Shown piece after piece: positions 44,503-62,230 of a stretch of 64,000 nt of DNA. The first letter of the stretch is position 1; each line of letters starts with the position of its first letter. The stretch is from Vaginella massiliensis (GTDB lineage Bacteria; Bacteroidota; Bacteroidia; Flavobacteriales; Weeksellaceae), in contig NZ_LT593746.1 in the NCBI RefSeq assembly GCF_900089075.1, positions 827,207-891,206 on the forward strand, in the 5' to 3' direction. Both the position numbers and the translations under genes were made by a program. The notes under the pieces are model-generated. The model searched no databases, was not told where the DNA came from, and worked only from the letters and a program-made list of their open reading frames with translations.

Positions 44503-45168
44503 ATGATATCACAGACGGAAGAGAATTACCTGAAGGCTATATATACGCTTACCAGTTTAAAAGGTGAGGCAAGTGTGAATGACATCAGCAAGCAGTTGGA
44601 CATCAAAATGCCTACTGTAAACAGTATGATGAAAAGGCTTGCAGAAAAAAAGCTGGTGGTTTATGAAAGCTACAAGCCGCTTAAACTTACTGCTGCCGGC
44701 AAGAAGCAGGCGGCTCTTATTATCCGTAAGCACAGACTGACTGAGATGTACCTCGTGGAAAAAATGGGATTTGGCTGGGAAAATGTACATAATATAGCCG
44801 AGCAGATAGAGCATATCCAGGCACCGGAATTTTTTGAGAAGATGGATGAGTTATTGGGCTACCCCAAAGTGGACCCTCACGGTTCACCTATACCGGATGT
44901 TGATGGTAACATTGCCTCTGACCATTATATAAAGTTAAGTGATTGTAAGCCCGGCGATGTGGTTACTTTTATGGCGGTACAGCCATCCTCCGAAGAATTG
45001 CTGAAATTCCTGAACAGCCGTGCGTTATCATTAGGATTGGATATTAAGATTGAACAAATCGAAACTTTTGACAACAGTATGCGTGTCAGCTATACAGGCA
45101 AGCAAAACGAAATGTTGAGTAATCAGGTCTGCGACAAGCTGCTCGTGAGTAAAAATACAAAAAAATAG
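44503..45168 (+). CDS. DtxR/MntR-family metal-dependent repressor
   Basis: The 221-residue protein has an N-terminal winged helix (SVNDISKQLDIKMPTVNSMMKRL), a dimerisation and metal domain with HRLTEMYLVEK and EQIEHIQAPEF (His, Glu and Glu-His ligands present) and KVDPHGSPIPD, and a C-terminal SH3/FeoA-like domain (residues ~145-215), as in DtxR and IdeR. The place of MntR Asp8 / DtxR Met10 is Asn8 here, so the metal choice is open. It is divergent from the TonB receptor, between two operators, and is a good candidate for the repressor of the whole island. Confidence 0.9.
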   Translation: MISQTEENYLKAIYTLTSLKGEASVNDISKQLDIKMPTVNSMMKRLAEKKLVVYESYKPLKLTAAGKKQAALIIRKHRLTEMYLVEKMGFGWENVHNIAEQIEHIQAPEFFEKMDELLGYPKVDPHGSPIPDVDGNIASDHYIKLSDCKPGDVVTFMAVQPSSEELLKFLNSRALSLGLDIKIEQIETFDNSMRVSYTGKQNEMLSNQVCDKLLVSKNTKK

Positions 45169-46034: not shown

Positions 46035-46931
46035 TTATTCTATGTTTTGCGACAATGAAATATCCTTTATCGCCAATTTTCTTTTTTTGTTTTTCAGCAC
46101 AAATTGGGTGTACACGAAAACAATGGCAAACACAACTCCTGTCATTAACGCCATACATCCGGCAATGGAAGCGTTGAGCCAATACGCCAACCAATATCCG
46201 GTAAAGGAAACCAGAATGCCGATACCTACCGTAATGAAAAGCATTTTCTTTAAGTTTTCGGTTAGTAGATAAGCTGTTGCAGGCGGTCCGATAAGAAAAG
46301 TAATGACCAATATCGCTCCCACAGATTCAAAGGCACTTACCGTAGTAAAAGATACTGCTGCCATCAGGAGGTAATGCCACAATGCGGTAGAAATGCCGAT
46401 AGCCGTAGCAAAAGACGGGTCGAACGAGGTTAGCTTCAGTTCTTTGTAGCCGAAATAAATAAACAATACCACCAGAAGCAGCACTACCGAAAGGATATAT
46501 ACCGGTTTGGGACCTATATTTGTGCCGTCAGCAAGTATCCAAAGGTTGATGGGTACATAAGCGAGTTCTCCGTACAGTACACAATCCTGGTCAAGGTCTA
46601 TCTTTCCGGCAAAAGTGCTGATAAGTATGATGCCCACCGCAAACATAAAAGTAAACACAATCCCGATGGAAGCATCGGTCTGTAAACGGGCTTTGCGGTG
46701 CAGGTATTCGATGATGAATGTCGCTAATAACCCCGTGGCTCCTGCACCAAGAAGCATCGGAAGCGTATCACGGCTACCGCTCCATAAGAAAGCGATAACA
46801 ATGCCAGGCAATACGGCGTGGCTGATGGCATCGCCTACCATACTCATTTTGCGGAGTATGAGGAAACTGCCCAGCAGTCCGCAGGAAATAGCCACCAGTG
46901 CTCCGGTTAATATTATCCAAAATGCTATCAT
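46035..46931 (-). CDS. Metal ABC transporter permease (MntB/ZnuB-like)
   Basis: The 298-residue protein has about nine membrane helices and the ABC-3 family motifs LRKMSMVGDAISHAVLPGI near the N-terminus and GAILVITFLIGPPATAYLLT (the cytoplasmic loop). It transports Mn, Fe or Zn through the inner membrane together with the ATPase and SBP encoded upstream. It ends with a basic tail. It is the second permease of the operon, 14 nt after the permease-DtxR fusion gene. Confidence 0.92.
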   Translation of the reverse strand: MIAFWIILTGALVAISCGLLGSFLILRKMSMVGDAISHAVLPGIVIAFLWSGSRDTLPMLLGAGATGLLATFIIEYLHRKARLQTDASIGIVFTFMFAVGIILISTFAGKIDLDQDCVLYGELAYVPINLWILADGTNIGPKPVYILSVVLLLVVLFIYFGYKELKLTSFDPSFATAIGISTALWHYLLMAAVSFTTVSAFESVGAILVITFLIGPPATAYLLTENLKKMLFITVGIGILVSFTGYWLAYWLNASIAGCMALMTGVVFAIVFVYTQFVLKNKKRKLAIKDISLSQNIE

Positions 46932-46945: not shown

Positions 46946-48229
46946 TTACTTCGGTATCACCGTTCCGTGCGGGTCAGTGTCCGGGTTGTCCAAATATTTT
47001 TCCAGTTGTTTTTCGAGTTCGGGCGTGATGTAATGCTCCATTTCCTCGGCATTGTCGTGTACGTGGTCGGGAGCTATTTCCATATAATTGGTCAGGTACA
47101 ATTCCCACAAACGGTGTAACCGCACTATCTTTTTTGCTTTTTCAAGACCGTTTGCTGTCAGTTGCCATTGTTGGTATTCGTTTACCACCTCTTTTCTCTT
47201 TTTAAGCCTTGTCAGCCCGGACTTCAATTGTGCCGGTTGCATTTTCCGGAAAGCCAGCAATTCTTCCGCCGTCCTTTTCTTATCGAAATTATTTTCTTTC
47301 TCTCCGATTTGATAAAACAGTTTCAGTATATTTTCATCCACCATTGTACGGCTGTTTTTGTTCCGCTTCATTGTTTTGGGAACAATTCCCAACGGAGCAA
47401 AAAAGAACGAAAAAAATGCAATCAGTGAAGAAACCACTACCATCCACGGACCCGTAGGCATTGCCGGGGCGATGTACGAGATGTACGCCCCTGCCAGTCC
47501 CGATAAGGCTCCGAATATCGCTGCCAGCCCAACCATTCTTCGGATATTGTGTGTCCAATACCTTGCCGCTGCGGCAGGCGTAATCAGCATCGCCGCCATC
47601 AGCACAACGCCTACTGCGGTAATGCCCGTTACCACCGCTAATACGGTAAGGCTGGTCAACAACATATCCAATTTTCGCACGGGCAAGCCCAATACCTGGG
47701 CATAATGCTCGTCAAAAGCGATAATGGTAAATTCCTTAAAAAACGCCAGTGTAGCCACAATCAGCACCACGGCAATAATGGAGAAGGTTATCAGGTCGCT
47801 GCCAACAAGTGTTGCTGCCTTCCCGAATATAAAACTGTCCATTCCGCTCTGTGCCGCATTGCCCGATTGTTGTATGTAGGTCATCATCACGATGCCCAGA
47901 GCAAAGAACACTGAAAGTACCAACCCGATGGCGGCATCTTTTTTTATCTTGGATTTAGCCGTGATGTAATCTATTGTTACCAAAGAAAGCCATCCCGAAA
48001 TGAAAGCTCCCACAAGCATCAATGAAATATTCTTTGTCCCTGCAAAAAGAAAGGCGGCACAAATACCCGGCAAAACCGAATGGGAAACGGCATCGCCTAC
48101 AAGTGATTTTTTCTTCAGTACAATGAACGAACCCACGATGGCGGCACTTACCGAAAGCAGGATGCTCCCGATAACCACATACTTGATATTTGGGTCATTG
48201 AATGAAAAAAAGTTGATGAAATTATCCAT
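46946..48229 (-). CDS. Metal ABC transporter permease fused to a DtxR-like domain
   Basis: Residues 1-~290 form an ABC-3 permease (LKKKSLVGDAVSHSVLPGICAAF; VLMAAMLITPAAAARY). The last ~130 residues form a DtxR-like winged helix plus dimerisation domain: KSGLTRLKKRKEVVNEYQQWQLT, then LHRLWELYLTNYM, EEMEHYITPEL and DTDPHGTVIPK, with His, Glu and Glu-His metal ligands in place. The C-terminal SH3 domain is absent. A metal-sensing domain on the inside of a metal importer could stop transport when cytoplasmic metal is high, or be a second repressor. Fused proteins of this plan exist in other Bacteroidota, as I recall. Confidence 0.85.
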   Translation of the reverse strand: MDNFINFFSFNDPNIKYVVIGSILLSVSAAIVGSFIVLKKKSLVGDAVSHSVLPGICAAFLFAGTKNISLMLVGAFISGWLSLVTIDYITAKSKIKKDAAIGLVLSVFFALGIVMMTYIQQSGNAAQSGMDSFIFGKAATLVGSDLITFSIIAVVLIVATLAFFKEFTIIAFDEHYAQVLGLPVRKLDMLLTSLTVLAVVTGITAVGVVLMAAMLITPAAAARYWTHNIRRMVGLAAIFGALSGLAGAYISYIAPAMPTGPWMVVVSSLIAFFSFFFAPLGIVPKTMKRNKNSRTMVDENILKLFYQIGEKENNFDKKRTAEELLAFRKMQPAQLKSGLTRLKKRKEVVNEYQQWQLTANGLEKAKKIVRLHRLWELYLTNYMEIAPDHVHDNAEEMEHYITPELEKQLEKYLDNPDTDPHGTVIPK

Positions 48230-48241: not shown

Positions 48242-49027
48242 TTATCCTTTTTCGGAAAATTTATCTTTAGCCAACAAGTCACCGGCTTCTGCCAATACGG
48301 ACAATCTTGTGCCGTAGGTCTTTTTGAGCAGTTCGGGAATGTAAACCTGCTTTACCGGACCCGAAGCCACGAGCCGCATATTGAGCATTACGAGCCAGTC
48401 GAAATATTCGGTGATAGTGTCCAAATCGTGGTGAACAACGATAACGTTCTTTTTAGCATTGACCATTTCACGCAGAAGTGTAATAATGGCTTCTTCCGTA
48501 GCGGCATCGACACCGGCAAAGGGTTCGTCCATCAGGTAAAAATCGGCTTCCTGAGCCAATGCCCTTGCGATGAAAACCCGTTGCTGCTGTCCACCCGAAA
48601 GCTGGGAAATCTGCCTTTTGGCAAAATCAGTCATTCCTACTTTTTCCAGACATTCCATTGCTATTTTCCTGTCGGAACTGCGTACGTTGCGAAGCATTCC
48701 GATTTTAGCATATCTTCCCATCAATACTACATCAAGTGCAGATACCGGAAAATCCCAATCCACCGTTTCCCGCTGGGGAACATAACTCACTCGGCTGCGG
48801 ACTTCATCCAGTTCTTTGCCAAATATTTTTACATAGCCACTCGATAGCGGAATTAAGCCCATTATGGATTTAAGCAAAGTGGATTTACCGGAACCGTTGG
48901 GTCCGATGATGCCCGTAATGCTTCCTTCGGGCAGGCTGAAATCTACGCCCCAGAGTGCCGGTTTGCTGGAATAGCTCACGGTAAGGTCGTGAACTTCCAA
49001 TACAGGATTTTCAGATTGGATAATCAT
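48242..49027 (-). CDS. Metal ABC transporter ATP-binding protein
   Basis: The 261-residue protein has GPNGSGKSTLLKSIMG (Walker A), LSGGQQQRVFIARALAQ (signature) and FYLMDEPFAGVD (Walker B), with the following HHDLDTITEYF switch His. It drives import by the ABC-3 permeases. It lies 5 nt after the SBP gene and 12 nt before the fused permease, all one operon. Confidence 0.93.
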   Translation of the reverse strand: MIIQSENPVLEVHDLTVSYSSKPALWGVDFSLPEGSITGIIGPNGSGKSTLLKSIMGLIPLSSGYVKIFGKELDEVRSRVSYVPQRETVDWDFPVSALDVVLMGRYAKIGMLRNVRSSDRKIAMECLEKVGMTDFAKRQISQLSGGQQQRVFIARALAQEADFYLMDEPFAGVDAATEEAIITLLREMVNAKKNVIVVHHDLDTITEYFDWLVMLNMRLVASGPVKQVYIPELLKKTYGTRLSVLAEAGDLLAKDKFSEKG

Positions 49028-49032: not shown

Positions 49033-49959
49033 TTACTGTTTTAATGCAGTTACAATGGTAGTGACATTATGCTTTACCATACCGATGTATGTACCTTCGG
49101 GAGTTCCTTTTTTGCCCATTGCATCTGAAAAGAGATTACCACCGATAGCGAGTTTTTTTCCTTTGTTATTTACACCTTCCACCACAGCTTTGAGCGATTT
49201 GTCCGATACGGAACTTTCCACAAATACTGCGGGAATATCGTTTTTGAGGATAAAATCGACCAAATCGGTAACATCCCGCAAACCGATTTCCGACATTGTA
49301 GAGATACCCTGCAATCCCCGAACCTCAATCCCATAAGCCTTTCCAAAATAGCTGAACGCATCGTGTGCGGTAATCAAAACCCGTCTGTTTTCAGGGATGG
49401 TTTCAATTTCGGCTTTCACCCAATGGTCGAGGCTGTCCAGTTCTTTAAGATATTTATCAGCGTTTTGCTGATAATACGCTGTGTTTTCGGGATTGAGCCG
49501 GATAAGATTTTTCAGTGCTATTTCCGCCGCTTCTTTCCAAAGAGCTACGTCAAACCAGATATGCGGGTCATAGGTATTTTCGGATACACTGATTATTTTT
49601 CCACGGCTGATGGTGTCGCCCAATGCAATTACCGGCTTTACGTGGGTTTGCTTCTCCAGTATTTCACCCATTTTGCCTTCAAGATGCAGTCCGTTGTAAA
49701 AGATGTAATCGGCATCCATTATTTTTTTGAGGTCGCCCTGGCTGGCTTTGTACAGATGCGGGTCCACTCCGGGCTGCATAATGGCTTCTACCTTTGCAGC
49801 ATCTCCGGCTATATTTTCTACTATATCGGCTATCATTCCCGTTGTAGTAATGATATAGGGCTTTTCATCTGTTGCTGTCTTTTTGTTTTCCCCGCAGGAA
49901 AACAACAGGGAAACAATGGCTAAAACACAAAGATAATATACGTGATTTTTCATCTTCAT
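49033..49959 (-). CDS. Metal ABC substrate-binding lipoprotein (Mn/Fe type)
   Basis: Started at the ATG at 49959, the 308-residue product has a lipoprotein signal (ending LLFSC) and the cluster A-I binding protein fold. The metal ligand blocks are GVDPHLYKAS (His), YDPHIWFD (His), VFVESSVSD (Glu) and LFSDAMG (Asp). The His-His-Glu-Asp set and the absence of a His-rich loop fit Mn/Fe-binding proteins such as PsaA, rather than ZnuA. It is the first gene of the transport operon, under the palindrome at 50028-50051. Confidence 0.88.
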   Translation of the reverse strand: MKMKNHVYYLCVLAIVSLLFSCGENKKTATDEKPYIITTTGMIADIVENIAGDAAKVEAIMQPGVDPHLYKASQGDLKKIMDADYIFYNGLHLEGKMGEILEKQTHVKPVIALGDTISRGKIISVSENTYDPHIWFDVALWKEAAEIALKNLIRLNPENTAYYQQNADKYLKELDSLDHWVKAEIETIPENRRVLITAHDAFSYFGKAYGIEVRGLQGISTMSEIGLRDVTDLVDFILKNDIPAVFVESSVSDKSLKAVVEGVNNKGKKLAIGGNLFSDAMGKKGTPEGTYIGMVKHNVTTIVTALKQ

Positions 49960-50015
49960 TTGAATTACGATTTTTCCTAAGTCATTCATAGAATGATACA
50001 AAATAAATATTTAGG

Positions 50016-50073
50016 CAAATATAATTAAAATGTTAGACTTGTATAACATTTAGACGATATTATTCTATATTTG
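50016..50073. promoter_or_regulatory. Divergent promoter region with an AT-rich palindrome
   Basis: AAATGTTA-N8-TAACATTT (50028-50051) is a perfect 8+8 palindrome that contains the variant GTTAG-N6-ATAAC. It sits between two -7 boxes: TATATTTG on the minus strand (50016-50023, for the metal transporter) and TATATTTG on the plus strand (50066-50073, for the small DtxR-like gene). Its core differs from the other four operators and could serve the adjacent regulator. Confidence 0.65.
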
Positions 50074-50159
50074 CTTTTAGGAATGGTGGTAATGCTGAAA
50101 GTCTGAATGCTATTTATATCAATCTTAAAACTGTATTGATTGTAATCTGGAGAAATAAG

Positions 50160-50609
50160 ATGGAAGAAATAAACGACCTGACATATGCTGAAAAAATGTA
50201 CCTGTTGAAGATTTATCAGCTCTCAATGGATGAGGATAAGCGTATTTCTACTACTCAAATAGCCAAATTGCTCGAAGTTAAAGCACCTTCGGCAACAGAT
50301 ATGCTGAAAAGACTGGCTTGTAAAGGACTGGTATCGTATAGTAAATACCAGGGTTGCGAAATAACAAAGGAAGGCATCAGTATTGCATCTGTGATTTTGG
50401 AGCAAACGCTATTGACACAACGGTTTCTAAATACGCAACTGGGTATGGCTATGGAAGATAGTCAGCGTATTGCAGAAAAAATCATTACGCTGGATGAACC
50501 TCTGCTGTTTGATAGTTTTGCTAAAATCCTAAAAGTTCACCAAACCGATAGCATACGGCGATTATCTTATACCCCAAATCCAAACCAACCCTTTTTCTTC
50601 TTTTTGTAA
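50160..50609 (+). CDS. Short DtxR-like regulator with a degenerate metal site
   Basis: The ATG at 50160 gives 149 residues. The winged helix (ISTTQIAKLLEVKAPSATDMLKRLACKGLVSYSKY) and dimer helix are present, and the DtxR Met10 position is Met here. But the His of the HxLLE motif is replaced (TLLTQRFL) and the Glu-His pair is lost (EKIITLDE), and the SH3 domain is missing. It may be metal-independent or sense something else. The last 43 nt overlap the convergent HAD gene. Confidence 0.75.
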   Translation: MEEINDLTYAEKMYLLKIYQLSMDEDKRISTTQIAKLLEVKAPSATDMLKRLACKGLVSYSKYQGCEITKEGISIASVILEQTLLTQRFLNTQLGMAMEDSQRIAEKIITLDEPLLFDSFAKILKVHQTDSIRRLSYTPNPNQPFFFFL

Positions 50610-51016
50610 TTGATATGAGCCTCTTTATTCTTTAATTGGTGTGCATATTCGCCACCTTCGGGATGAAGGGTCTGCCAGATAACATCCCACCCCATAAAGC
50701 CGCCTACATTGCGGTCGTCAATAAAAATGTCGGCATTAATTTTCCTGCTGAAATCACCTTCAGCGGTTTCTCCCGGATAGTTTTCATTGACTGCATAAAA
50801 TTCCAGCCCGTTCCCTCTGCAATAATCAACAGCCTCTTCCAGCTCTTTCCCTTTCCTGTAAGTCCACAATATCAACCGGTGTCCTTTGCTTTTAAGTGCT
50901 TTAAGTGTCGCAAAGGCAAACATCATTTCGTTCCCGATATCGGGGTATTTATGTTCAACAACAGTGCCGTCAAAATCTACGGCTATTACTTTTCCTTTCG
51001 TATCAATAAGGTTCAT
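50567..51016 (-). CDS. HAD-superfamily small hydrolase
   Basis: The 149-residue protein has the HAD motif I VIAVDFDGTVVEHKYP, motif II LILWTYRKGKEL and motif III/IV INADIFIDDRNVGGF, all around a cytoplasmic fold without an obvious cap. A phosphatase acting on a small phosphoester is likely. It is the last gene of the 14-gene operon, overlapping the upstream gene by 4 nt; HAD enzymes need Mg or Mn. Confidence 0.78.
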   Translation of the reverse strand: MNLIDTKGKVIAVDFDGTVVEHKYPDIGNEMMFAFATLKALKSKGHRLILWTYRKGKELEEAVDYCRGNGLEFYAVNENYPGETAEGDFSRKINADIFIDDRNVGGFMGWDVIWQTLHPEGGEYAHQLKNKEAHINYKKKKKGWFGFGV

Positions 51017-51315
51017 TTCTTACTGTATTTTGCTCTAAGTTTTATTTTTTCGTTTTCTCTTTCAATCAGCAGGGCTGCTATAATCTGCCCTGCGGGAAGT
51101 TTATCTTTATTTTCAGCCAATGCTTTTTTGACCTTTTCTTCCGATACATCTATGTGGTACAATATGCTTAGCAGTTTATTGAAATCGGATTGTATCAGTC
51201 CGTCTAAGTAGCGTGCCAGTACCTCAAATTGTTCCTCGTTTGAATATTGGGATGCAACTTCTTCAAGCTGAAGTTTATCAGCAATCAGGGATATGGGGTA
51301 ATACGTTCTATCCAT
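51013..51315 (-). CDS. Conserved hypothetical small protein
   Basis: The 100-residue protein begins MDRTYYPISLIADKLQLEEVA, has a helical middle part and a basic end (LLIERENEKIKLRAKYSKK). I recognise no enzymatic motif. It lies between lpxH (21 nt upstream) and the HAD gene (4-nt overlap) in the operon, so it is very likely expressed. Confidence 0.7.
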   Translation of the reverse strand: MDRTYYPISLIADKLQLEEVASQYSNEEQFEVLARYLDGLIQSDFNKLLSILYHIDVSEEKVKKALAENKDKLPAGQIIAALLIERENEKIKLRAKYSKK

Positions 51316-51335
51316 TTATGAATATTTTTTGATGA

Positions 51336-52133
51336 TTAATGTAATTTAGCTTCCCGATTGCCGAATTTGTTTAAACACATCGTACAGCCGTCAAATTTGC
51401 CGTATGTAAAATGATGTATCCAGTCACCCAGATTGATGTACCGGGATTTTTCGTTAAGTGCTATATCCAAAGGAAGATGCCTGTGTCCGAAAACGAAATA
51501 ATCATAATGTGCGGATGCCAGTTTTTGTCTGGCATATTGGACCAGCCATTCTTTATCTTCTCCAAGAAACTTTACATCTTCATCACCTGAAATAAGTTTG
51601 TTTTTGACCGAAAGGTATTGCCCCAATCTTATGCCGATGTCGGGATGCAACCAACGGAACAGCCACACAAACAATGGACAGGTAAATATCTTTTTCAACC
51701 GTTTATAGCCCTTGTCATAAGGACCCAATCCATCTCCGTGAGCGATAAAAAAACGTTTCCCGTTAATCGTAAATATTTCCGGCGAATGAAATACGGGAAT
51801 GTTCAGTTCCTTCTCAAAATATCCGCTCATCCATAAGTCGTGATTGCCTGCAAAGAAATATACGGGAATACCGCTGTCGGTTATTTCGGCAAGTTTGCCC
51901 AATAGCCTGACAAATCCTTTCGGAACAACGGTTTTATACTCGAACCAGAAATCAAATATATCTCCCAGCAAAAAAATAGCTCCGGCATCCTTTTTTACGC
52001 TGTCCAGCCATTTTATCAGCCGTAATTCTCTCGCATAACTTTCCTTTGCAGTTGGTGCACCCAAATGGCTGTCGGAGGCAAAATATACGTTTTTACCACT
52101 GCTTAATTCTATGTAACGGCATCTTGTTTCCAA
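51336..52133 (-). CDS. lpxH: UDP-2,3-diacylglucosamine hydrolase, LpxH-like
   Basis: The ~265-residue calcineurin-like phosphoesterase shows DSHLG (motif D-x-H), LLGDIFDFWFEYK, FAGNHDLWMSG and IAHGDGLG and a late FGHRHLP. These two-metal (Mn) motifs and the length are those of LpxH, which makes lipid X in lipid A synthesis. No in-frame ATG is near; TTG at 52133 is the best start. It lies 27 nt after gpmA in the operon. Confidence 0.8.
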   Translation of the reverse strand: METRCRYIELSSGKNVYFASDSHLGAPTAKESYARELRLIKWLDSVKKDAGAIFLLGDIFDFWFEYKTVVPKGFVRLLGKLAEITDSGIPVYFFAGNHDLWMSGYFEKELNIPVFHSPEIFTINGKRFFIAHGDGLGPYDKGYKRLKKIFTCPLFVWLFRWLHPDIGIRLGQYLSVKNKLISGDEDVKFLGEDKEWLVQYARQKLASAHYDYFVFGHRHLPLDIALNEKSRYINLGDWIHHFTYGKFDGCTMCLNKFGNREAKLH

Positions 52134-52159
52134 ACATTCATTCAGTGTTTTAATGATTT

Positions 52160-52795
52160 CTAAATCGGGACGGTATTGTTTGTTTCTGCGATAACCCTTC
52201 CCAGTTTTACGGCATTCATCTGGTCATCGAAAATGTACGTCAGGGGTTCGCCTGTTGCAATTTCCCGTTTCAGTATTTCTTCGGGAGAGAGATGTTCCAG
52301 GTACATTATCAATGCCCGCAAACTATTACCGTGAGCCACAAGAAGTACATTCTTATGCTGCTGTAATTGTGGCTGTATGAAATTTTCAAAATAAGGTATC
52401 ACTCGGTCGTAAGTATCTTTCAGGCTTTCACCACCCGGAGGTGCAATGTCGAATGAACGTCGCCAGATATGTACCTGCTCGGCTCCGTATTTTTTGGCTG
52501 TTTCGGCTTTGTTCAATCCTTCCAGCATACCGTAGGCTCGTTCGTTCAATGCCTCGTTAATGATAATGGGCGTGTTTGTTTTTCCCATTTCGTTCAGGAT
52601 GATTTTTAATGTATGCTGTGCCCTGATGAGCTTAGATGTAAAGGCTACATCTACTTTTTCTTCTTTCAGGATTTGCCCTGCCCGTTCAGCTTCCAGTTGT
52701 CCAAGTGCTGTAATATCTACATCCTGCCAACCTGTAAAACGGTTTTCAAGGTTCCATTGTGATTGTCCGTGCCGGACTAAAAATAATTTTCTCAT
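52160..52795 (-). CDS. gpmA: 2,3-bisphosphoglycerate-dependent phosphoglycerate mutase
   Basis: The ATG at 52795 begins [27 protein letters not shown], the RHG signature of histidine phosphatase d[24 protein letters not shown] and [13 protein letters not shown] follow. The ~211-residue enzyme interconverts 3- and 2-phosphoglycerate in glycolysis through a phospho-His and needs no metal. Longer reading in the same frame overlaps dihydroorotase and is unlikely. Its place between metalloenzyme genes is notable because the alternative mutase, GpmI, needs Mn. Confidence 0.9.
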
Positions 52796-52799
52796 CGTT

Positions 52800-54146
52800 T
52801 TATGTATTATGTTTAACCAATGCTTTTCCTTTTCTATCTTCATTAAAATGCCCCTCTTCGTAAACAAGGTTTCCATTGACCAATGTGTGTGTAACCTTAG
52901 TTTGAAAAACAGTACCTTCCAATGGCGACCAGCCACATTTATACAGGATATTGTCTTTTGAAACCATCCATTCCCTGTTCATATCCACCAATACCAAATC
53001 CGCATAATATCCCTCCCTGATAAATCCACGGTTCTCGATTTGGTAAAGTATAGCAGGGTTATGGCACATCTTCTCCGCTATTTTTTCCAACGATATAATT
53101 CCCTGCTTAAAAAATTCAAGCATAATATTCAGTGAATGCTGTACCATAGGTGCGCCTGAAAGAGCGGTAAAATAGTTGCCGCTTTTTTCTTCAAGGGTGT
53201 GCGGTGCGTGGTCGGTAGTAACCAGGTCAATATGATTGTCTGTCAATGCCTGCAACAAACCTTTTCTGTCTGCTTCTGATTTGATGGATGGGTTCCATTT
53301 TATGAATGCGCCCAATCGGTCATAGTCTTTCTCGGAAAACCAAAGATGCTGTACGCAAACTTCGGTAGTGATGTTCTTATCAGTCAGGGGAATGGTTTTG
53401 TCAAATAGCTGTGCTTCGGATGCGGTTGTAAGGTGCAGGATATGCAAACGGGCATTGTATTTGGTTGCCAAAGCAATAAAGTCCCGTGTTGCTTCGATAC
53501 AGGCTTGCTCATTGCGTATTTGAGGATGGAACTTAAATGGAATATCGTTACCATATTGCAGCTTATAAACAGCTTCGTTTGCTGTAATGAGGGCTTCCTT
53601 TTCGGCGTGTACGGCAATGATACATTGGCAATGGGCAAACAGTTTTTCCATTACCTGCGGATTGTCGGCAAGCAGGTTTCCTTTCTTTGTAAAGTATAAG
53701 CCGTCGTCTGATACCGCCAGGAACTGAGAGGTATCCATCTGAAGAATATCCTCAATGTTATCGGCATTTACGCCCATAAAAAAGCCAAAGTTTGCCAATG
53801 ACTTCTGTGCTGCCATACGGTATTTGTTTTCCCATAATTTCAGCGTGAGTACATTGGGCTTCGTGTTCGGCATATCTATAAACGAGGTAACGCCTCCGGC
53901 TATGGCTGCCTTGCTTTCTGTATATAAATCCGCTTTGTGCGTTAATCCGGGGTCACGAAAATGCACCTGACCGTCAATAACCCCTGGAAATAAATACTTA
54001 CCGTTTCCGCTAATCACTTTTGCATCCCACTGATGAAGTGCAATACCTATTTTTTGGATACGACCATTAGCAATGAGTACATCTGCATTGGTAATGATGC
54101 CCTCATTGACTACGTTGGTATCTTTTATGAGAATAGGTTGTGTCAT
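52800..54146 (-). CDS. pyrC: Dihydroorotase
   Basis: The ~448-residue amidohydrolase has [15 protein letters not shown] (His-x-His metal motif), [33 protein letters not shown] and [10 protein letters not shown], as class I dihydroorotases. It closes carbamoyl-aspartate to dihydroorotate in pyrimidine synthesis and binds Zn. The ATG at 54146 is preferred over a TTG 18 nt earlier. It is the tenth gene of the operon. Confidence 0.88.
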
Positions 54147-54154
54147 TTTCTTTG

Positions 54155-54925
54155 TTAATTCCAAATGCCGTTGGCTTCCGTTAGAATAACAGGAGCGCCA
54201 TCGGTAACGATTAGCGTATGTTCGTGCTGGGCTACATAGCCGCCTTTATTGCCTACAAGTGTCCATTCATCCAGTTTCGGATTACCCAATACTGCCATTG
54301 TAGAGTGGGTGGCTATAAATGTTTCCACGGCAACAACCGTATTTTTCCTGAACCGGCTGAAATTCATCTTGTCCCGGAAATTAGGGATGGACGGCTCTTC
54401 GTGCAGCCTGTTCCCGATACCGTGACCCGTAAGATTGTGTATCACTTTGTATCCTCTTTTTTTGGCTTCCGTTTCAATAATAAACCCCACATCTTTTATC
54501 CGCACACCGGCTTTGATGTTGCCGATGGCTTTCTTCAGTATTTGCTTGGACGCATCAACCAAAAGAGTGTGGTTATGCACATCGTTTCCCAATACAAACG
54601 AACCGCCATTATCCGCCCAAAAGCCGTTCAGTTCGGCAGATACATCTACGTTTACCAAATCACCTTCTTTCAGGATTTTAGTGGCAGACGGAATGCCGTG
54701 TGCTACTTCCTGATTGACACAGATACAGGTACAACCGGGAAATTTGTAAGTGGAATATGGGGCTGACTTTGCTCCGAAACTGTAAAGCATCTTCGCTCCG
54801 AAATCATCCAGTTCTTTTGTGGACATACCGGGTTCGGCGTAGCGTTGCATTGCCCTTAGTGTAAGAGCAACCGCTTTGCTTACTGCCTGCATCCCGATTA
54901 AATCCGTTTCTGCTGATATTGACAT
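54155..54925 (-). CDS. map: Methionine aminopeptidase type I
   Basis: The ATG at 54925 gives a 256-residue enzyme with CTCICVNQEVAHGIPSATK, DLVNVDVSAELNGFWADNGGSF (Asp metal ligands), TGHGIGNRLHEEPSIPN (His) and FIATHSTM and HEHTLIVT (Glu-His end). It removes N-terminal Met from new proteins and needs two Fe, Mn or Co ions. The typical chromosomal map is usually beside secY, so this is probably an extra copy (not visible here). Confidence 0.92.
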   Translation of the reverse strand: MSISAETDLIGMQAVSKAVALTLRAMQRYAEPGMSTKELDDFGAKMLYSFGAKSAPYSTYKFPGCTCICVNQEVAHGIPSATKILKEGDLVNVDVSAELNGFWADNGGSFVLGNDVHNHTLLVDASKQILKKAIGNIKAGVRIKDVGFIIETEAKKRGYKVIHNLTGHGIGNRLHEEPSIPNFRDKMNFSRFRKNTVVAVETFIATHSTMAVLGNPKLDEWTLVGNKGGYVAQHEHTLIVTDGAPVILTEANGIWN

Positions 54926-54945
54926 AATTCTTATTATTAATTGTT

Positions 54946-57285
54946 TTAGCTGCCGCAGGCAATGCACTCTTCGGGATTGTCCAATGAACAGGAAATTTCC
55001 GCTTGTTTGTCTTCGGCTGATTGCACCGTTTCTACCGTAAACTTGATGGCATCTGCTGCCGCTTTGGTTCGCAGGTAATACATTCCTGTTTTCAGTCCGC
55101 TTTTCCAGGAGTGGAAGTGCATCGAAGTGAGCTTTGCCATATTGGGTTCTGCCATAAAAAGGTTGAGCGATTGGGATTGACAGATAAATGCACCTCTGTC
55201 GGCAGCCATATCAATGATGGTTTTCTGTTTGATTTCCCATACGGTCTTGTACAGTTCTTTTAAATCCGTAGGAATTTCCTCAATGTTTTGAACAGAACCA
55301 TTCTCGGCAATCAGCCTGTTTTTCATTTGGGCATCCCAAAGGTTTAATTCTATCAGGTCTTTCAGTAAATGCTTATTGACCACCACAAACTCACCCGAAA
55401 GCACACGCCTGTTATAAACATTACTTGTGTAAGGTTCAAAGCATTCGTTGTTCCCCAATATCTGCGAAGTAGAAGCGGTAGGCATCGGAGCCACTAACAA
55501 GGAATTGCGTACGCCAAATTCCATTACGTCTTTACGTAAATCTGCCCAATCCCAACGGTCTGATGGCTCGACATTCCATAAATCAAACTGAAACTTTCCC
55601 TCGGAAAGGGGCGAGCCCTTGAAACTCTCGTAAGCCCCCTGTTCCTTCGCCAGCTCCATCGAACTTTCCATTGCCGCATAGTAGATGGTTTCAAAAATAT
55701 CCTTGTTCAGTTGCCGTGCTTCCTCACTTTCAAAAGGCATCCGCAATAACAGGAAGACATCCGCCAAACCTTGTACGCCCAAACCGATAGGTCGGTGTCT
55801 GAAGTTGGAGTTTTGCGTTTCGGGTACGGGATAGTAATTGCCGTCAATGACTTTATTGAGGTTTCGGGTAACAATCTTCGTTACTTCGTACAGCTTCTGA
55901 AAATCAAAGCCATTCTCTGCAACATATCTCGGCAAAGCCAGTGAAGCCAGGTTGCATACGGCAACTTCTCCGGCATTGGTGAACTCCATTATCTCGGTAC
56001 ACAGGTTGGAGCTACGGATTACGCCTATATTTTTCTGGTTGGACTTTTCGTTGACGGCATCTTTGTAGCATATATAAGGCGTACCTGTTTCTATTTGGGC
56101 TTCCAATATGGCGTTCCAAAGCTCACGGGCTTTTACCTGCCTGCGGAATTTCCCTTCCTGCTCATATTGTTGGTACAATGCCGCAAACTCATCGCCATAA
56201 GTATCGTACAATCCTGGGGCTTCATTCGGGTCAAACAGTGACCAATCGGCATTTTCTTCTACCCGTTGCATAAACAAGTCGGGTATCCACAGGGCAGGGA
56301 ACAAATCCCTTGCCCGCATTTCTTCCTTGCCGTGGTTTTTGCGGAGGTCGAGGAAATCAAAAATATCGGCGTGCCACGGTTCCAGATATACCGCAATGGC
56401 TCCCTTGCGTTTGCCGCCGCCCTGGTCCACATAACGGGCTGTGTCATTATACACCCTAAGCATCGGGATGATGCCGTTGGAAATACCGCCTGTACCTTTG
56501 ATGTAGCTGCCCGTAGCCCTTACATTGTGAATGCTCAACCCGATACCTCCGGCTGATTGCGAAATCAAAGCACAGCGTTTCAGGGTGTCGAAAATACCGC
56601 TGATGCTGTCTTCGGTCATACTCAACAGGAAACAGGACGACATCTGCGGTTTGGGTGTTCCGGCATTGAATAAGGTAGGCGTAGCGTGGATAAACCATTT
56701 TTCGCTCATCAGGTTGTAGGTTTCTATTGCTGCTGCAATATCTTCTTTGTGTATGCCTATTGCCACCCGCATAAACAAGTGCTGCGGACGTTCGGTTATT
56801 TTGCCGTTAGTGCGGATGAGGTATGAGCGTTCCAGTGTTTTGAACCCGAAATAGTCAAAATTATAATCCCGGTCATAAATGATACTGCTGTCTATGGCAT
56901 CGGCATTTTTTCGGATGATGTCATAGGTTTCTTTAGATAATAAAGGTGCGTACGTATTGGTTACAGGGTCGATATAATCGTACAGCAATTTAGCTGTTTT
57001 GGAAAATGACTTTAGGGTATTCTTATGCAGGTTGCTGACCGCAATTCTTGCAGCAAGCACAGCGAAATCAGGATGTACCGTTGTATAGGCGGCAGCCGTT
57101 TCTGCGGCAAGATTATCCAGCTCGGTAGTGGTTACATTGTCATAGATGCCCTGAATTACTTTCTTGGCAATTTCGATGACATCCTTTTCGTCCACAGCCA
57201 GTCCGTACACTAATTTGTGTAGCCGTGCCGTAATCTTATCGAAATGTACGGCTTCCTGTTTTCCGTTTCTTTTTATTACAAACAT
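54946..57285 (-). CDS. nrdA: Class Ia ribonucleotide reductase, large subunit
   Basis: The 779-residue protein has an ATP-cone ([20 protein letters not shown], residues 1-~90), the catalytic barrel with SSCFLLSM and NLCTEIMEF cysteines, [12 protein letters not shown] and the C-terminal CIACGS redox pair. It makes deoxynucleotides from ribonucleoside diphosphates using the NrdB radical. It resembles eukaryotic-type class Ia enzymes. Its gene is separated from nrdB by def, and lies 20 nt before map. Confidence 0.95.
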
Positions 57286-57307
57286 TGAGCGTTGCGTTAA
57301 TTTATTT

Positions 57308-57892
57308 TTAGTTCTTGAATTTCATTTTATAGGGCGTGGTAACGTTTCCTTTCAGCACTTGTTTCAGCTTACTTTCCATCAGTTTTTTACTCAATGGTTT
57401 TACACGGTCTATGTATAAAATGCCTTGCGTATGGTCGTATTCGTGCAGGATAACACGGGCAGTCATTCCGCTAAACTTTTTCTGTATGGTTTCAAAATGC
57501 TGATTTTGATACTGCACTTCCACAGACCAGGAACGAACCACCTTGCCGGACAGAAATGGCAGGCTCAAACAACCTTCCGTTTCTTCCCATTTGTTTTCAG
57601 AAAGGCTTATAATTTCTGTATTGATAAATACTTCCCGGATGCCCGTATCTCCTTCGGTAAAAACATCTTTCCGTTCTGTTTCTCCCATATTATCAAACAG
57701 AATTTTGCTGTCCGCTACAAAGAGCTGAAGCGGCTTGCCAATTTGCGGTGCAGCCAGTCCACAGCCCTGTGCGTTTTCCATCGTTTCCCACATATCGGCA
57801 ATGAGCGTATCCAGTCCGGGAAAATCCTGCTCCACCTTATCTGCTGTCATTTTCAGCACATTATTCCCATATCCGTAAACCGGTAACTTCAT
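57308..57892 (-). CDS. def: Peptide deformylase
   Basis: The ATG at 57892 gives a ~194-residue enzyme with [21 protein letters not shown] (Cys ligand) and [18 protein letters not shown] (HExxH metal site). It removes the formyl group from N-terminal Met and is naturally an Fe enzyme. It sits between nrdB and nrdA. The Tyr in HEYDH is a variant of the usual HEFDH or HEIDH. Confidence 0.93.
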
Positions 57893-57906
57893 CTCAAGCA
57901 CATTTA

Positions 57907-58878
57907 TTAAAAATCTTCATCGAGCGAAAAGCTGTTTTGTTCTTTTGTATTCTGTACCACACCCGATTTTTGGTATTCGCCTACACGACGTTCAAAAAAG
58001 TTGGTTTTTCCTTGCAGTGAAATCAGCTCCATAAAGTCAAACGGGTTGGTAGCATTCCAAATCTTTTTACAGCCTAATGCCACAAGCAACCGGTCAGCTA
58101 CAAACTCAATGTACTGGCACATCAGTTCGGCATTCATCCCGATAAGCCTAACGGGTAAAGCATCTGTTACAAATTCTTTTTCAACGTCAACCGCATCGGC
58201 TATTATTTTTTGCACGGTTGCTTCGGGCAATTTGTTGACCAGGTGATTGACATACAGCAAACAGGCAAAATCGCAGTGCAGACCTTCGTCACGGCTGATG
58301 AGTTCATTGGAAAACGTCAGACCGGGCATCAGTCCCCGTTTTTTCAGCCAGAAAATGGAACAAAAGCTGCCTGAAAAGAAAATCCCTTCGACAGCCGCAA
58401 ATGCAATCAGCCTTTCGGCGAAATTGTCGCTTTCAATCCAGCGTAAAGCCCAATCGGCTTTTTTGCCCACACAGGGGATGGTGTCAATAGCTCGTAACAG
58501 GTAATCCTTTTCTACAGCGTCTTTTACATAGGTATCAATCAGCAGGGAGTACATTTCCGAATGGATATTCTCAATCATAATCTGGAACCCGTAGAAGCAA
58601 CGTGCTTCGGGATATTGCACTTCCTGTACAAAGTTTATGGCAAGGTTTTCATTTACGATACCGTCACTCGCCGCAAAAAATGCCAGTACGTGCGATATGA
58701 AATAGCGTTCGTCATTGTTCAGCTTGTTGTGCCAGTCGTTCATATCGGGCGACAAGTCCACTTCTTCGGCTGTCCAAAAACTCGCTTCTGCTTTTTTGTA
58801 GAATTGCCAGATGTCATCGTGCTGAATGGGAAAGATGACAAACCGGTCTTTGTTATCCTGTAAAATCGGCTCAATCAT
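57907..58878 (-). CDS. nrdB: Class Ia ribonucleotide reductase, small subunit
   Basis: The 323-residue protein has all ligands of the diiron-type R2: [13 protein letters not shown] (Asp), [23 protein letters not shown] (Glu and His ligands and the radical Tyr in EMYSLL), and [16 protein letters not shown]. It is strikingly like animal R2 in these parts. The radical-carrying Tyr is kept. The start overlaps the pepA stop by 8 nt. The metal may be Fe or a mixed Mn/Fe; the sequence does not decide. Confidence 0.94.
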
Positions 58879-60313
58879 CTTTGCACTTTCTTTTTACAAA
58901 TTCATATAATAACCGTACAGGTACAGCCGTAGCTCCGCTCTGCCTGTATCCTTTGGCTTCTTTGACGAATGCTGCTCCTGCAATGTCAAGGTGTAACCAG
59001 GGATAGTCCGTAAAGTGTTCCAAGAATATGGAAGAGGTGCTGACACCGCCTACCGGACCGCCCAGATTGCTCATATCGGCAACCGAAGATTTCAGCAAAT
59101 CTTTGTATTCTTTCCAAAGGGGTAGTTGCAATAACCTTTCGTAAACCTGCTCGCCAATGCCTTTGAGCTCATCAATCTGTTCCTGAGCATTTCCCAACAC
59201 GGCTATTCCTAACGAACCTGTAATGGCAGCCGAAGCTCCCGTTAAGGTTGCCATATCAATGACCAGTTCAGGCTCAAACCGTTTGGCGTATGTCAAGGCA
59301 TCAGCCAATACCAAACGCCCTTCAGCATCGGTATTCTGTACCTCTATGGTAGTGCCGTCCATCATTGTGATGACATCATCAACGACCAAAGCATTAGCCG
59401 AAATCTTATTGTCCGTAGCGGGAACCAATCCGATTACATAATAGGGCAGTTTGTTTCCTGCAATAGCAGCAACCGTTCCCAATACTGCCGCACCTCCTGC
59501 CATATCGCATTTCATCGTGAGCATATTACCGCCTGTCTTCAGCGAGTAACCACCCGTATCGAACATCACGCCTTTGCCCACCAGCACCAGCGGCTTTTCA
59601 TTGACCGCATTTTCGGGCTTGTAATGGAAAATATTGAAGGTTGGCGGTGTTTCCGAACCTTTGTTTACCGCAAGCAAACCACCCATTTTCAATTCCTCTA
59701 TCTGTGCTTTGTGCAGGATTTCGGTTTCAAAACCAAACTGTTTTCCAGCTTCTGTTGCCACTTCGGAAAACCGCAGGGCATCCATATAATTGACAGGCTC
59801 GTTTACTAATGTTTTCGTCAGTGAAACGGCTTCTACAAGCCGTTTCAGCTCTTCAATCTTGTCTTTCGGAAAAGAGCGGTTACGGATATGCACATCAACG
59901 GGATGCTGTTTCTTTTTTGCTTTGTATTTATTAAAATCATAGCTACTCAACAGCATTCCCTCTAAAAACGCATAGCGTTCTGCTTCCGTAAGTTCATCCA
60001 GCCCCCGTAGTCGTGCAGTTTGGGTTTGCTGTTTCTGCAAGGCAGCATACAGCGATGCTCCTGCCAACCTTAATGCCTCGGTTTCCGTATTGGGCGTGAT
60101 GACAATAAAGTTCTGTTTATCGCCCAATGTGGTAATCACTTCCGTTTGATTTTCAGAAAATGCCTTGTCAATGTTTTGTACCAATGATTTCTGAAAGGCA
60201 TAGCGTTCTGCCTGCTCTTTGGTGGCAATGAGTATGATGTTTGCAGCACTATCTGCAACGTCTTCTTTTTTTGTATAGGGTATGAAATTTAAGTTCAAGT
60301 AATTATCCTGCAT
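58871..60313 (-). CDS. pepA: M17 leucyl aminopeptidase
   Basis: The 480-residue protein has the M17 signature [14 protein letters not shown] and [20 protein letters not shown] with KCDMAGGAA before it, giving the two-metal (Zn/Mn) site. It trims N-terminal residues from peptides in the cytoplasm. The family is usually hexameric. It overlaps the peroxiredoxin stop by 11 nt and nrdB by 8 nt. Confidence 0.92.
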
Positions 60314-60929
60314 TTTGCTCTTTTAGTTTTGCTGTTACCGTTTGTTGTCCTGGTGTCCATCCGCAACCTGTCAATTCTTCTGTTTGCAGTGCATCCAGTA
60401 CCCTAAGCACTTCGTTTACATTTCTGCCTACGTTCATCGGATACACGCTTACCCATTGTATTTTGCCATTGGGGTCGATGATGAAGGTGGCACGGTAGGC
60501 AACTTTTTCTTCACTGTCGAGTATGCCCATTTCTTCAGCTAAAGATTTTGAGGTATCAGCAAGCATCGGAATAGTCAGTTTTGCCAATTCCGGATGGTTT
60601 TGCCTCCATCCAAGATGCACGAACTCTGTATCGGTAGAAGCTCCGATAACCTGTGCGTTACGTTCTACAAATGCGGTATTGTTATTGTCAAATTCGATGA
60701 TTTCGGTAGGACATACAAACGTGAAATCTTTCGGCCACCAGAACAGCACTGTCCATTTGCCTTGCTCTGAAAGATAACGGTTGTCGATGTCCGTAATTTC
60801 TATGCCGTTTTCTGTGGTTACAACAGCTTTCTTGAAAAATTCGGGCAGTTTATCCCCGATACTTAAAGGTCCTTTTTGTACCAGTTGCATTTGCTGCTGG
60901 CTCATTAGTTTTTTTACTGAATTGCACAT
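60303..60929 (-). CDS. Peroxiredoxin (AhpC type)
   Basis: The 208-residue protein has the peroxidatic motif WPKDFTFVCPTEI and a C-terminal TGCGWTPG with the second Cys, plus ADTSKSLAEEMGILD. It reduces H2O2 and organic peroxides. No partner reductase is in the window. It follows the TPR gene by 5 nt within the operon and is one of the two antioxidant enzymes at the operon's start. Confidence 0.9.
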   Translation of the reverse strand: MCNSVKKLMSQQQMQLVQKGPLSIGDKLPEFFKKAVVTTENGIEITDIDNRYLSEQGKWTVLFWWPKDFTFVCPTEIIEFDNNNTAFVERNAQVIGASTDTEFVHLGWRQNHPELAKLTIPMLADTSKSLAEEMGILDSEEKVAYRATFIIDPNGKIQWVSVYPMNVGRNVNEVLRVLDALQTEELTGCGWTPGQQTVTAKLKEQNAG

Positions 60930-60934
60930 AATCT

Positions 60935-61399
60935 CTAATCTATTTTTATTAAATTGTTTTCTACTAATTGTTCTTTCAGGGTTCTGAAAAGCTGTTCCTG
61001 CTTTTCCTTTCCTGTATTATTTTTCTCTGCAAAACGGACATAAGCCAATGTGGCTCTTTTCAGTTCCGATTGTATCTCGTCAGGATTGAGGGCTTTATTG
61101 GCTGAAAGATGCAGGAGGTAATACACCGTACGTTTGAGCATATTTTCCGCTTCTTCCAGATTGCCAAGCTCTTCGTAGGTGTTCGCCAGGTTATTGCAGG
61201 AAATGATATATACCTGTATGAACGGTATTTTCAGACGGATGCAATCCGGGATGTTATTGTTCAGTACTTCCGCTCTGTACAGTGCGTCTTTATATCCTGA
61301 CAGTGCTTTTTCAAAATTGCCTTTATTGAAATGCTCGTTATTCGATACAGTTAATGACTGCCAATATTTTTCTATATGGTCCATACAGGTATCACTCAT
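60935..61399 (-). CDS. TPR-like small helical protein
   Basis: The 154-residue protein has two helix pairs of TPR character (NKGNFEKALSGYKDALYRAEVLNNN and ISCNNLANTYEELGNLEEAENMLKRT) and no catalytic motif. It is probably a cytoplasmic protein-binding partner. It starts 2 nt before the SOD stop region's end and is fixed between sodA and the peroxiredoxin gene, so it may help mature or repair one of them; that is inference. Confidence 0.72.
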   Translation of the reverse strand: MSDTCMDHIEKYWQSLTVSNNEHFNKGNFEKALSGYKDALYRAEVLNNNIPDCIRLKIPFIQVYIISCNNLANTYEELGNLEEAENMLKRTVYYLLHLSANKALNPDEIQSELKRATLAYVRFAEKNNTGKEKQEQLFRTLKEQLVENNLIKID

Positions 61400-61400
61400 T

Positions 61401-61997
61401 TTATTTTAAATTGTTGTTCGCAAAATCCCAGTTGACGATTTCCCAAAAGCCTTCCACAAATTTTGGACGGGCATTGCGGTAGTCGATGTAGTAGGCGTGT
61501 TCCCATACGTCCAGCGTGAGGATTGGGGTTTTATTTTCAGTCAATGGAGTATGGGCATCTTTCATCGGCACGATTTCCAGTTTTTGGTTTTCGTCCTGTG
61601 CGAGCCACGCCCATCCGCATCCAAATAGCTTTACTGCCGTAGTAGAAAACAGTTCCTTGAAGTTTTCAAAACTGCCGAAATCACGATTGATAAGTTCGGC
61701 TATCCTGCCTTGTGGAGTTTTACCGCCATTTGGCGAAAGGCAATGCCAGAAAAAGCTGTGGTTCCAATGCTGTGCAGCATTATTGAACAGTCCGGCATTG
61801 TTTTCTGCAAATCCCTTTCGTATGATTTCCTCGACGGTAGCGTTTTCTAAGGGGGTGTCTTTTACCAACCCTGCAAGGTTGTTGACATACGTAGCGTGAT
61901 GCTTACCGTAATGATAATCGAAGGTTTCCTCCGTGATTATCGGATTAAGGGCATTTCTGTCGTACGGAAGCTCCGGTAATACTTGTGTAATTCTCAT
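61401..61997 (-). CDS. sodA: Superoxide dismutase, Fe/Mn family
   Basis: The 198-residue protein has the metal-binding blocks HHATYVNNLAGL, NNAAQHWNHSFFWHCLSP, LFGCGWAWL and DVWEHAYYIDYRNARP. AAQ at the Gln place is the Fe-SOD signature rather than Mn-SOD, though cambialistic use is common in this phylum. It removes superoxide. Its ATG overlaps the stop of a 56-residue upstream frame (ATGA), so it is translationally coupled. Confidence 0.93.
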   Translation of the reverse strand: MRITQVLPELPYDRNALNPIITEETFDYHYGKHHATYVNNLAGLVKDTPLENATVEEIIRKGFAENNAGLFNNAAQHWNHSFFWHCLSPNGGKTPQGRIAELINRDFGSFENFKELFSTTAVKLFGCGWAWLAQDENQKLEIVPMKDAHTPLTENKTPILTLDVWEHAYYIDYRNARPKFVEGFWEIVNWDFANNNLK

Positions 61998-62164
61998 CTC
62001 TTATTGTTCTTTAGTTTTAAAATTTTAATCGCTCTTTTTAATTGACTGACCTGCCCTAATTGCTCTGTGGCTTTCTTCATATTGTTCTGCATCAGGTTAT
62101 TATCCCGAATATTTCTTTCGAGGTATTTCTTGTTTTCTTCCAATAATTCTATTACATACTCCAT
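61994..62164 (-). CDS. 56-residue leader protein of the metalloenzyme operon
   Basis: This frame begins ATG-GAG-TAT at 62164 (MEYVIELLEENKKYLERNI...), is helical, rich in Asn/Lys/Leu with a basic end (KILKLKNNKR), and ends in a TGA that overlaps the sodA ATG by 4 nt (ATGA). It is the first frame downstream of the operator promoter at 62200-62230. No relative is recognised. The tight coupling suggests real translation, as a leader or a small partner protein. Confidence 0.6.
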   Translation of the reverse strand: MEYVIELLEENKKYLERNIRDNNLMQNNMKKATEQLGQVSQLKRAIKILKLKNNKR

Positions 62165-62199
62165 ATCACTAATCTTGTTTTTGATTAAAATTAGATTAG

Positions 62200-62230
62200 C
62201 AAAAATAATAAGTTAGAATGTACTAACAAA
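62200..62230 (-). promoter_or_regulatory. Promoter with embedded DtxR-type operator, metalloenzyme operon
   Basis: On the minus strand TTTG (62230-62227), a 19-nt spacer and TATTTTTG (62207-62200) form an ideal Bacteroidota promoter. GTTAG-N6-CTAAC (62212-62227) fills the spacer, with 4 nt between its edge and the -7 box. A bound repressor would block RNA polymerase directly. Confidence 0.8.

Follow-up and report, generated by a model that had tools for sequence, protein, structure and literature searches.

A putative manganese-sparing operon on a conjugative element of Vaginella massiliensis

When Escherichia coli is starved of iron it switches to manganese through sodA, nrdHIEF and mntH, and in zinc sparing a metal sensor, Zur, controls duplicate enzymes, PyrC among them. 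For manganese itself, a "manganese-sparing response" below MntR is described in Staphylococcus aureus (PMC12421985); GpmA, which unlike the phosphoglycerate mutase GpmI does not depend on manganese, supports growth without the metal (PMC6684088), and a superoxide dismutase (SOD) able to use iron, the cambialistic SodM, supports growth under manganese starvation (PMC5245786). The 14-gene operon described here appears to share these traits. It lies in a window of 64,000 nucleotides, positions 827207-891206 of the 2.43-Mb genome of Vaginella massiliensis (G000; contig NZ_LT593746.1), and is probably a mobile, MntR-type-repressed switch that would carry its host from manganese to iron or to no metal at all.

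Manganese enzymes and their counterparts in the operon

The 14 genes run from 62164 to 50567 on the minus strand and, by open reading frame (ORF) and family searches, stand in the order given by a preliminary description of this DNA:

61994..62164, minus: 56-aa leader protein, a small unknown (ORF; a 60% identical 56-aa ORF stands at the same place in locus L019)
61401..61997, minus: Fe-pattern SOD (Pfam; motifs; solved relatives)
60935..61399, minus: TPR protein, the module marker (TPR Pfam matches; 59-69% relatives in L019 and L020)
60303..60929, minus: AhpC/Prx peroxiredoxin (Pfam over cut-off; NCBIfam models under cut-off)
58871..60313, minus: M17 leucyl aminopeptidase (Pfam; metal ligands kept in the alignment)
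57907..58878, minus: NrdB, eukaryote-like class I R2 with Tyr/Asp pairing, diiron type by sequence class (mouse R2 1h0n; alignment)
57308..57901, minus: peptide deformylase, Def (TIGR00079 over cut-off; ligands kept in the alignment)
54946..57285, minus: NrdA, class I ribonucleotide reductase (RNR) large subunit with ATP cone (TIGR02506 over cut-off; Pfam)
54155..54967, minus: type I methionine aminopeptidase, MAP (TIGR00500 over cut-off; ligands kept)
52800..54164, minus: dihydroorotase PyrC, with Asp (SDDG) at the place of its relatives' Lys (NF006688 over cut-off; alignment)
52160..52795, minus: GpmA, 2,3-bisphosphoglycerate-dependent (metal-free) phosphoglycerate mutase (TIGR01258 over cut-off)
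51336..52133, minus: LpxH-like phosphoesterase (LpxH is the best NCBIfam model, under cut-off at 90/134 bits; ligands kept)
51013..51315, minus: 100-aa protein (DUF100), function unassigned, core member (related proteins in L019 and, following M17, in L078)
50567..51016, minus: BT0820-family HAD phosphatase (NF046079 over cut-off; solved relative 2obb)

Successive ORF spacings are -4, 1, 5, -11, -8, 5, 22, -22, -10, 1, 26, 20 and -4 nt, a range of -22 to +26 nt that bears out the earlier claim of close packing as one operon. MAP, PyrC and GpmA probably start at ATGs downstream of their longest-ORF starts; with the later ATG at 52795 the spacing before GpmA becomes 4 nt, not 1 nt. Spacing of this kind suggests a single transcript across all 14 genes. 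Between 49900 and 63600 a scan for sigma-70-type promoters gave no excess (26 vs 30.7 in shuffles), internal promoters of the Bacteroidota type not being part of the scan, and terminator-like sites on both strands are somewhat more frequent than chance (19 vs 13.1, sd 3.4, in shuffles), three of them being weak minus-strand sites within the operon. Over its first 25 kb the window has a G+C content of 38%, and the operon and the neighbouring importer genes reach 43% and 44%.

Three enzymes of the operon carry the case for manganese. Its SOD has the motifs NNAAQHWNH and DAHTPL, which we take to be the iron pattern, and both other SODs found in the host genome have NNGGG or NNAGG together with NQDNPL, presumably the manganese pattern; one of the two has a lipoprotein-like start. 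None of the 24 best solved relatives of the operon SOD is labelled as a manganese enzyme, several of them having no metal label. For RNR, the best solved relatives of the chromosomal R2, which is read beside the other NrdA, are the class Id proteins of Flavobacterium johnsoniae (6cwo, 588 bits), and in the alignment the Glu ligand, the Lys four residues further on and the Tyr of HSEAY are all conserved, as PMC8463856 describes for class Id. The same article describes the class Id cofactor as Mn2(III/IV), assembled with superoxide, and reports that SOD inhibits this assembly (PMC8463856). The operon R2, which matches mouse R2 best (1h0n, 510 bits), has the Asp ligand and Tyr of a class Ia diiron protein. 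As for phosphoglycerate mutase, GpmI was found in all four carrier genomes tested (G000 and the relatives G168, G296 and G297 introduced below), and GpmA in the operon of each. The operon GpmA keeps RHG, Glu and His, presumably its catalytic residues.

By sequence class, then, the operon offers manganese-free or other-metal isozymes for the host's manganese enzymes in SOD, RNR and phosphoglycerate mutase, and three unrelated enzymes would change from manganese to iron or to no metal; the metal bound by each operon protein is predicted from its class. This triple swap alone could be chance because Fe-SOD and GpmA are common in bacteria, and its weight comes from the relatives and the operator.

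The preliminary description had called the operon a set of backup enzymes. In the host genome this is true of most genes tested: outside the operon there are two SODs, an RNR, two Defs (one with a secretion-like start), one MAP of similar length adjoining GpmI as well as two longer M24 frames, one LpxH (57% identical) and one HAD protein (58% identical over 111 residues, between GpmI and MAP), with GpmI as the non-homologous counterpart of GpmA. A chromosomal GpmI-HAD-MAP cluster, present in G000 and in the Weeksellaceae relative (as HAD-MAP in G297), is matched in the operon by GpmA, HAD and MAP. The backup claim is false for M17 and PyrC in this host, a genome search having found no second copy of either. 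The earlier text had also held that its model would fail if these were the only copies, which is the case for these two genes here and not in G296, where M17, PyrC, LpxH, Def and MAP each have another copy.

The operon PyrC is probably idle cargo in this host because no PyrB passes its cut-off in G000 (one match of 70.5 bits, cut-off 237). PyrB also has no match over the cut-off in the Weeksellaceae relative G298 and is present in G296 and G297. At the position of a Lys in its two aligned relatives, presumably the carbamylated Lys of this enzyme class, PyrC has Asp, and its metal site may therefore differ. On the side of Def, no peptide deformylase match was found in the 2.4-Mb, 99% complete genome G298, the other three genomes searched having 3, 4 and 3.

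Operator, regulator and importer

The operon stands next to metal-related genes and candidate operators:

62213..62226: DtxR/MntR-type candidate operator TTAGN6CTAA at the operon promoter (pattern scan)
50032..50047: one-mismatch candidate operator at the transporter promoter (pattern scan)
44433..44483: intergenic pair of exact candidate operators, with the MntR-like gene on one side and the TonB receptor gene on the other (pattern scan)
49033..50001, minus: TroA-like metal-binding protein of an ABC importer (residues 39-321 best to TroA 1toa, 297 bits)
48242..49027, minus: ABC importer ATPase (family search)
46946..48229, minus: ABC-3 permease fused to a DtxR/MntR-like domain (family search)
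46035..46931, minus: ABC-3 permease (family search)
44503..45168, plus: full-length DtxR-family regulator, MntR-like (family search; Glu at the DtxR Cys102 position)
50136..50609, plus: short DtxR-family protein without a metal-binding domain match (family search)
42093..44384, minus: TonB-dependent outer-membrane receptor behind the operator pair (family search)

The palindrome TTAGN6CTAA occurs exactly five times in the window against 1.15 expected, a number reached in 1 of 100 shuffles. Four of the five sites are intergenic and adjoin metal or cargo genes, namely at the operon promoter, in the AraC/ABC stretch (63472-63485) and, as a pair, between the MntR-like and TonB receptor genes; the fifth (8592) is inside an ORF. 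Exact sites are also found upstream of the operons of L019 and L020, two relatives described below. In the three operons the palindrome starts 19, 19 and 24 nt before TAnnTTTG, which we take to be the Bacteroidota promoter element, and at the importer promoter a one-mismatch palindrome starts 23 nt before it. When the 150-bp upstream stretches were shuffled, an exact site appeared in 16 (window), 20 (L019) and 5 (L020) of 2000, the pattern having been chosen once the sites were known. The AraC gene and the divergent block of ABC exporter, siderophore-interacting protein (SIP) and SDR genes share one exact site (window 63472-63485 and L067:4641-12645).

The regulator encoded at 44503-45168 has a helix-turn-helix and a metal-binding domain. 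Its best alignments are with metal-dependent regulators, ScaR and SloR among them, and Glu occupies the position of DtxR Cys102, presumably an MntR-like trait; by eye, both DtxR-type metal domains of the region show this Glu in the alignment. We infer that the repressor acting at TTAGN6CTAA is of the MntR/DtxR family. No MntR-like gene of this element was found in the stretch examined near the L019 and L020 operons, and repression there would fall to a regulator of the host. The importer's binding protein most resembles TroA and has His in the third ligand position; a PsaA-type Glu ligand was considered and rejected because the alignment gives His, as in TroA. One of the permeases (46946-48229) joins an ABC-3 domain to a DtxR/MntR-type domain, an arrangement that presumably resembles chlamydial YtgCR.

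Relatives and mobility of the operon

Relatives were sought in an 84,980-species genome collection with a query alignment made from two TPR proteins, a scan that finds close relatives only and gives a lower bound. At least three loci were found: L018 in "Bacteroidetes bacterium 47-18" (G296), L019 in a Chryseobacterium metagenome-assembled genome (G297) and L020 in Weeksellaceae bacterium TAE3-ERU29 (G298, apparently the same genome as G168). Among 296 genomes of the order there were four TPR matches at E <= 0.001, including the window's own, with one other strong match (G168); the remaining two (E 5e-4 and 9e-4) sit in longer frames. The operon of L018 differs from that of the window at 4 positions in 11,316 bp. 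That of L019 has nine genes, 56-aa ORF-SOD-TPR-Prx-M17-NrdB-NrdA-GpmA-DUF100, at 58-86% identity, and is without Def, MAP, PyrC, LpxH and HAD. In L020 the series is SOD-TPR-GpmA (79, 59 and 72% identical), in a genome that also has a chromosomal Mn-pattern SOD and, at a separate locus (L078:7154-8926), an M17-DUF100 pair (58 and 44%) with TTAGN6CTAA just upstream. The host's class Id R2 has counterparts in G296 and G297, whose other R2 proteins are 76% and 74% identical to it. By gene content, the manganese swap is the shared part, and the other five enzymes would have been added in the window's operon or lost in its relatives.

The mobile character that had been proposed is upheld. RteC, a relaxase, a YWFCY/TraG coupling protein, a topoisomerase and ParA are encoded near the operon and, judged by their families, mark a conjugative element. 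The window from 26.2 to 62.25 kb, except for 31.8-34.8 kb, aligns with the first 40 kb of one G296 contig, at 98.2% identity from regulator to operon, 91% over 34.8-44.8 kb and 88% over 26.2-31.8 kb. The operon is directly behind the coupling-protein gene in G296, and in G000 the AraC-ABC-SIP-SDR block stands between them; the two coupling-protein genes are 83% identical. That the metal module is nearly identical while the backbone next to it has diverged suggests that this module was recently exchanged or transferred. None of the other genes of the window's element was found around the L019 and L020 operons in the roughly 20 kb examined.

Two side observations concern the flanks. The part of the window that does not align with the G296 stretch (31788-34768) coincides with a possible defence insert at 31783-34689, made up of a restriction gene of GmrSD type and a Swt1-like HEPN gene that falls slightly short of its Pfam cut-off. 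The L019 operon (L019:3958-17464) sits between helicase-like and metallophosphoesterase-like genes, which we take to be an apparent ligase-associated DNA repair cluster, and may have inserted there.

Two other sources of such an operon were tried and rejected. As a phage-style nucleotide module it would be expected among viral R2 loci, of which the best 80 of 104 relatives were inspected over up to 8 kb on each side (many were shorter); NrdA was the only other operon gene found, 69 of the 80 loci having NrdA and NrdB and 11 NrdB alone, and no viral match came from scanning with the TPR and SOD alignments. Viral contigs, up to 476 kb in length, commonly carry eukaryote-like R2 genes whose products are 60-74% identical to the operon R2 over their best segment. 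As plasmid cargo the operon fares no better: no TPR match was found in plasmids, and R2, GpmA and M17 matches are nearly all below 60%. The R2 matches comprise 204 records, 203 of them below 60% and one at 73%, on a Hymenobacter plasmid whose annotated surroundings, the only ones inspected among the plasmid matches, have no partner genes; GpmA (491 records) and M17 (90 records) are all below 60%, and the importer stretch gave 4 short DNA matches.

Interpretation and comparison with known systems

In the reading judged probable, the operon is a mobile switch that spares manganese. In manganese-replete cells TTAGN6CTAA would be occupied by a Mn-loaded MntR/DtxR-family repressor, which would keep the operon, the importer and the TonB receptor off. 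As manganese falls, all three would be released and the importer would scavenge the metal; Fe-SOD would replace Mn-SOD, the diiron-tyrosyl RNR would replace the class Id dimanganese RNR, and the metal-free GpmA would replace GpmI. M17, Def, MAP, LpxH, the altered PyrC and peroxiredoxin would add further copies or variants, around this core, for steps that depend on metals or are sensitive to oxidants. The response to manganese itself is predicted from the operator and the kinds of enzymes encoded.

Several observations weigh against this. The metal type of the SODs depends on a motif rule, and the chromosomal pair was judged by motifs only. Def, MAP, M17 and LpxH keep their metal ligands, in alignments read by eye and at positions that we assigned as ligands, and are thus not manganese-free by sequence, and two of the supposed duplicates, M17 and PyrC, have no second copy in G000. 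A looser 16-mer with two mismatches allowed is not enriched in the window (18 vs 20.2 expected); that search is uninformative, and the operator case therefore rests on the exact sites and their positions. For the regulator, MntR is the best NCBIfam family but remains under its cut-off (130/350 bits; the DtxR model gives 81). Having His in the third ligand position, the TroA-like protein presumably belongs to the kind that binds zinc in addition to manganese, and it is possible that the importer takes up both. Finally, the exact site at the AraC, ABC exporter and siderophore-interacting-protein cargo could hint at iron.

The preliminary description had read the operon more widely, as a response to scarcity or mismetallation of iron, manganese or zinc. 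Its metal logic stands, but the scope is too broad because Fe-SOD and diiron RNR make no sense under iron starvation; the core swaps point to manganese. For the same kind of reason an iron-starvation regulon was rejected, since the operon would raise iron demand. A general backup set for oxidant-damaged or mismetallated enzymes of all three metals, induced by any metal or oxidative stress, appears unlikely. The place of peroxiredoxin and SOD near the operon front speaks for it, as do Def, MAP, M17, LpxH and PyrC, metalloenzymes of mixed metals, four of which keep their ligands; but the core swaps common to the relatives all lead from manganese to iron or no metal, the operator is of DtxR type and common to the TroA-type importer, Fe-SOD and diiron RNR would help little against a loss of iron, and a backup role fits badly with the single copies of M17 and PyrC.

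A regulon of the DtxR/Zur kind for zinc or iron limitation, with paralogues that need less of either metal, is more improbable still. The zinc-binding capacity presumed for the TroA-like protein, the altered PyrC metal site, the known Zur-controlled duplicates such as PyrC and the operator shared with the AraC and siderophore-interacting cargo are in its favour. Against this, the GpmA, SOD and RNR swaps spare no zinc and two of them raise the demand for iron, both DtxR-type metal domains have what we take to be the MntR-like Glu (seen by eye), and among Def, MAP, M17, LpxH and PyrC only PyrC is altered, which is not the loss of zinc ligands seen in Zur-type sparing. Least probable of all, and by our estimate very much so, is metabolic cargo without a common function, selected for host-independent housekeeping. 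The probably idle PyrC and the gene content that varies between relatives would suit it, but core order and operator are kept in relatives of 58-86% identity that lack the element's other genes nearby, and the two most similar carriers share an almost unchanged operon while their coupling-protein genes have diverged.

The closest described relative of the element as a whole is ICEEaI of the Taiwanese Elizabethkingia anophelis 296-96 lineage (region GR6), whose genes are listed in Table 1 of PMC8768576. The list runs RteC, topoisomerase III, DNA methylase, TonB receptor, MntR, Mn ABC transporter, LpxH, phosphoglycerate mutase, MAP, class Ia RNR, Def, PepA, AhpC, SOD[Fe], AraC, heterodimeric efflux ABC and 3-oxoacyl-ACP reductase. 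The window and L067 have almost this series in this order, and by the names and order of cargo and accessory genes, which were compared in place of sequences, the window's element appears to be of ICEEaI type. Two points differ: in the ICEEaI list MntR and the transporter are separated by an alpha-acetolactate decarboxylase, and PyrC is not named (PMC8768576). The available text treats the transporters as possible efflux systems, not as part of manganese sparing, offers no functional account of the gene set and reports very different cargo in the Wisconsin ICEEaI (PMC8768576). The word manganese is absent from the main text, as available, of PMC8694125 and PMC9639502, and none was found for PMC6854844. 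Among the open-licence PubMed Central papers listed in the searches, none was seen to describe a mobile element with a manganese-sparing operon. The preliminary statement that no description was known can therefore stand for the function, within that literature, and not for the gene list, which is in print (PMC8768576).

What is already known, as far as the available texts go, are individual S. aureus enzymes of this kind of response and the gene list of the element; a single transferable operon that swaps RNR as well, and the logic behind it, seem not to have been described in the open-licence papers listed. In S. aureus the response consists of separate chromosomal genes and a small RNA (RsaC), and the available portions of the articles describe no RNR swap, operon or mobile element. 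Up to now metal sparing has been known for zinc or for individual enzymes. If the manganese-sparing reading is true, manganese independence would be one transferable operon, RNR class swap included, that spreads between Bacteroidota, and there would be a reason for a second, iron-type RNR in a genome that has a class Id dimanganese RNR. An E. anophelis lineage from hospitals has an element for which nearly the same gene list is in print; there, selection could plausibly come from nutritional immunity, in which the host withholds manganese.

The Zur systems concern another metal and another sensor family, whereas the core of this operon swaps manganese enzymes for other isozyme classes. The nearest parallel in logic is the E. 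coli switch, which likewise coordinates a metal change of SOD and RNR with an importer and is opposite in direction, from iron to manganese there and from manganese to iron or none here. It is an evenly balanced proposition, in our judgement, that the operon is the full mirror of that enterobacterial switch: a complete, self-regulated manganese-to-iron-or-none switch on a conjugative element, with coupled SOD and RNR swaps. Such a switch would move DNA synthesis, superoxide defence and glycolysis of manganese-dependent Bacteroidota off manganese in one step. The coupling would follow from the superoxide that class Id RNR needs, as described in PMC8463856, because SOD could rise freely only once the O2-activated diiron RNR had taken over.

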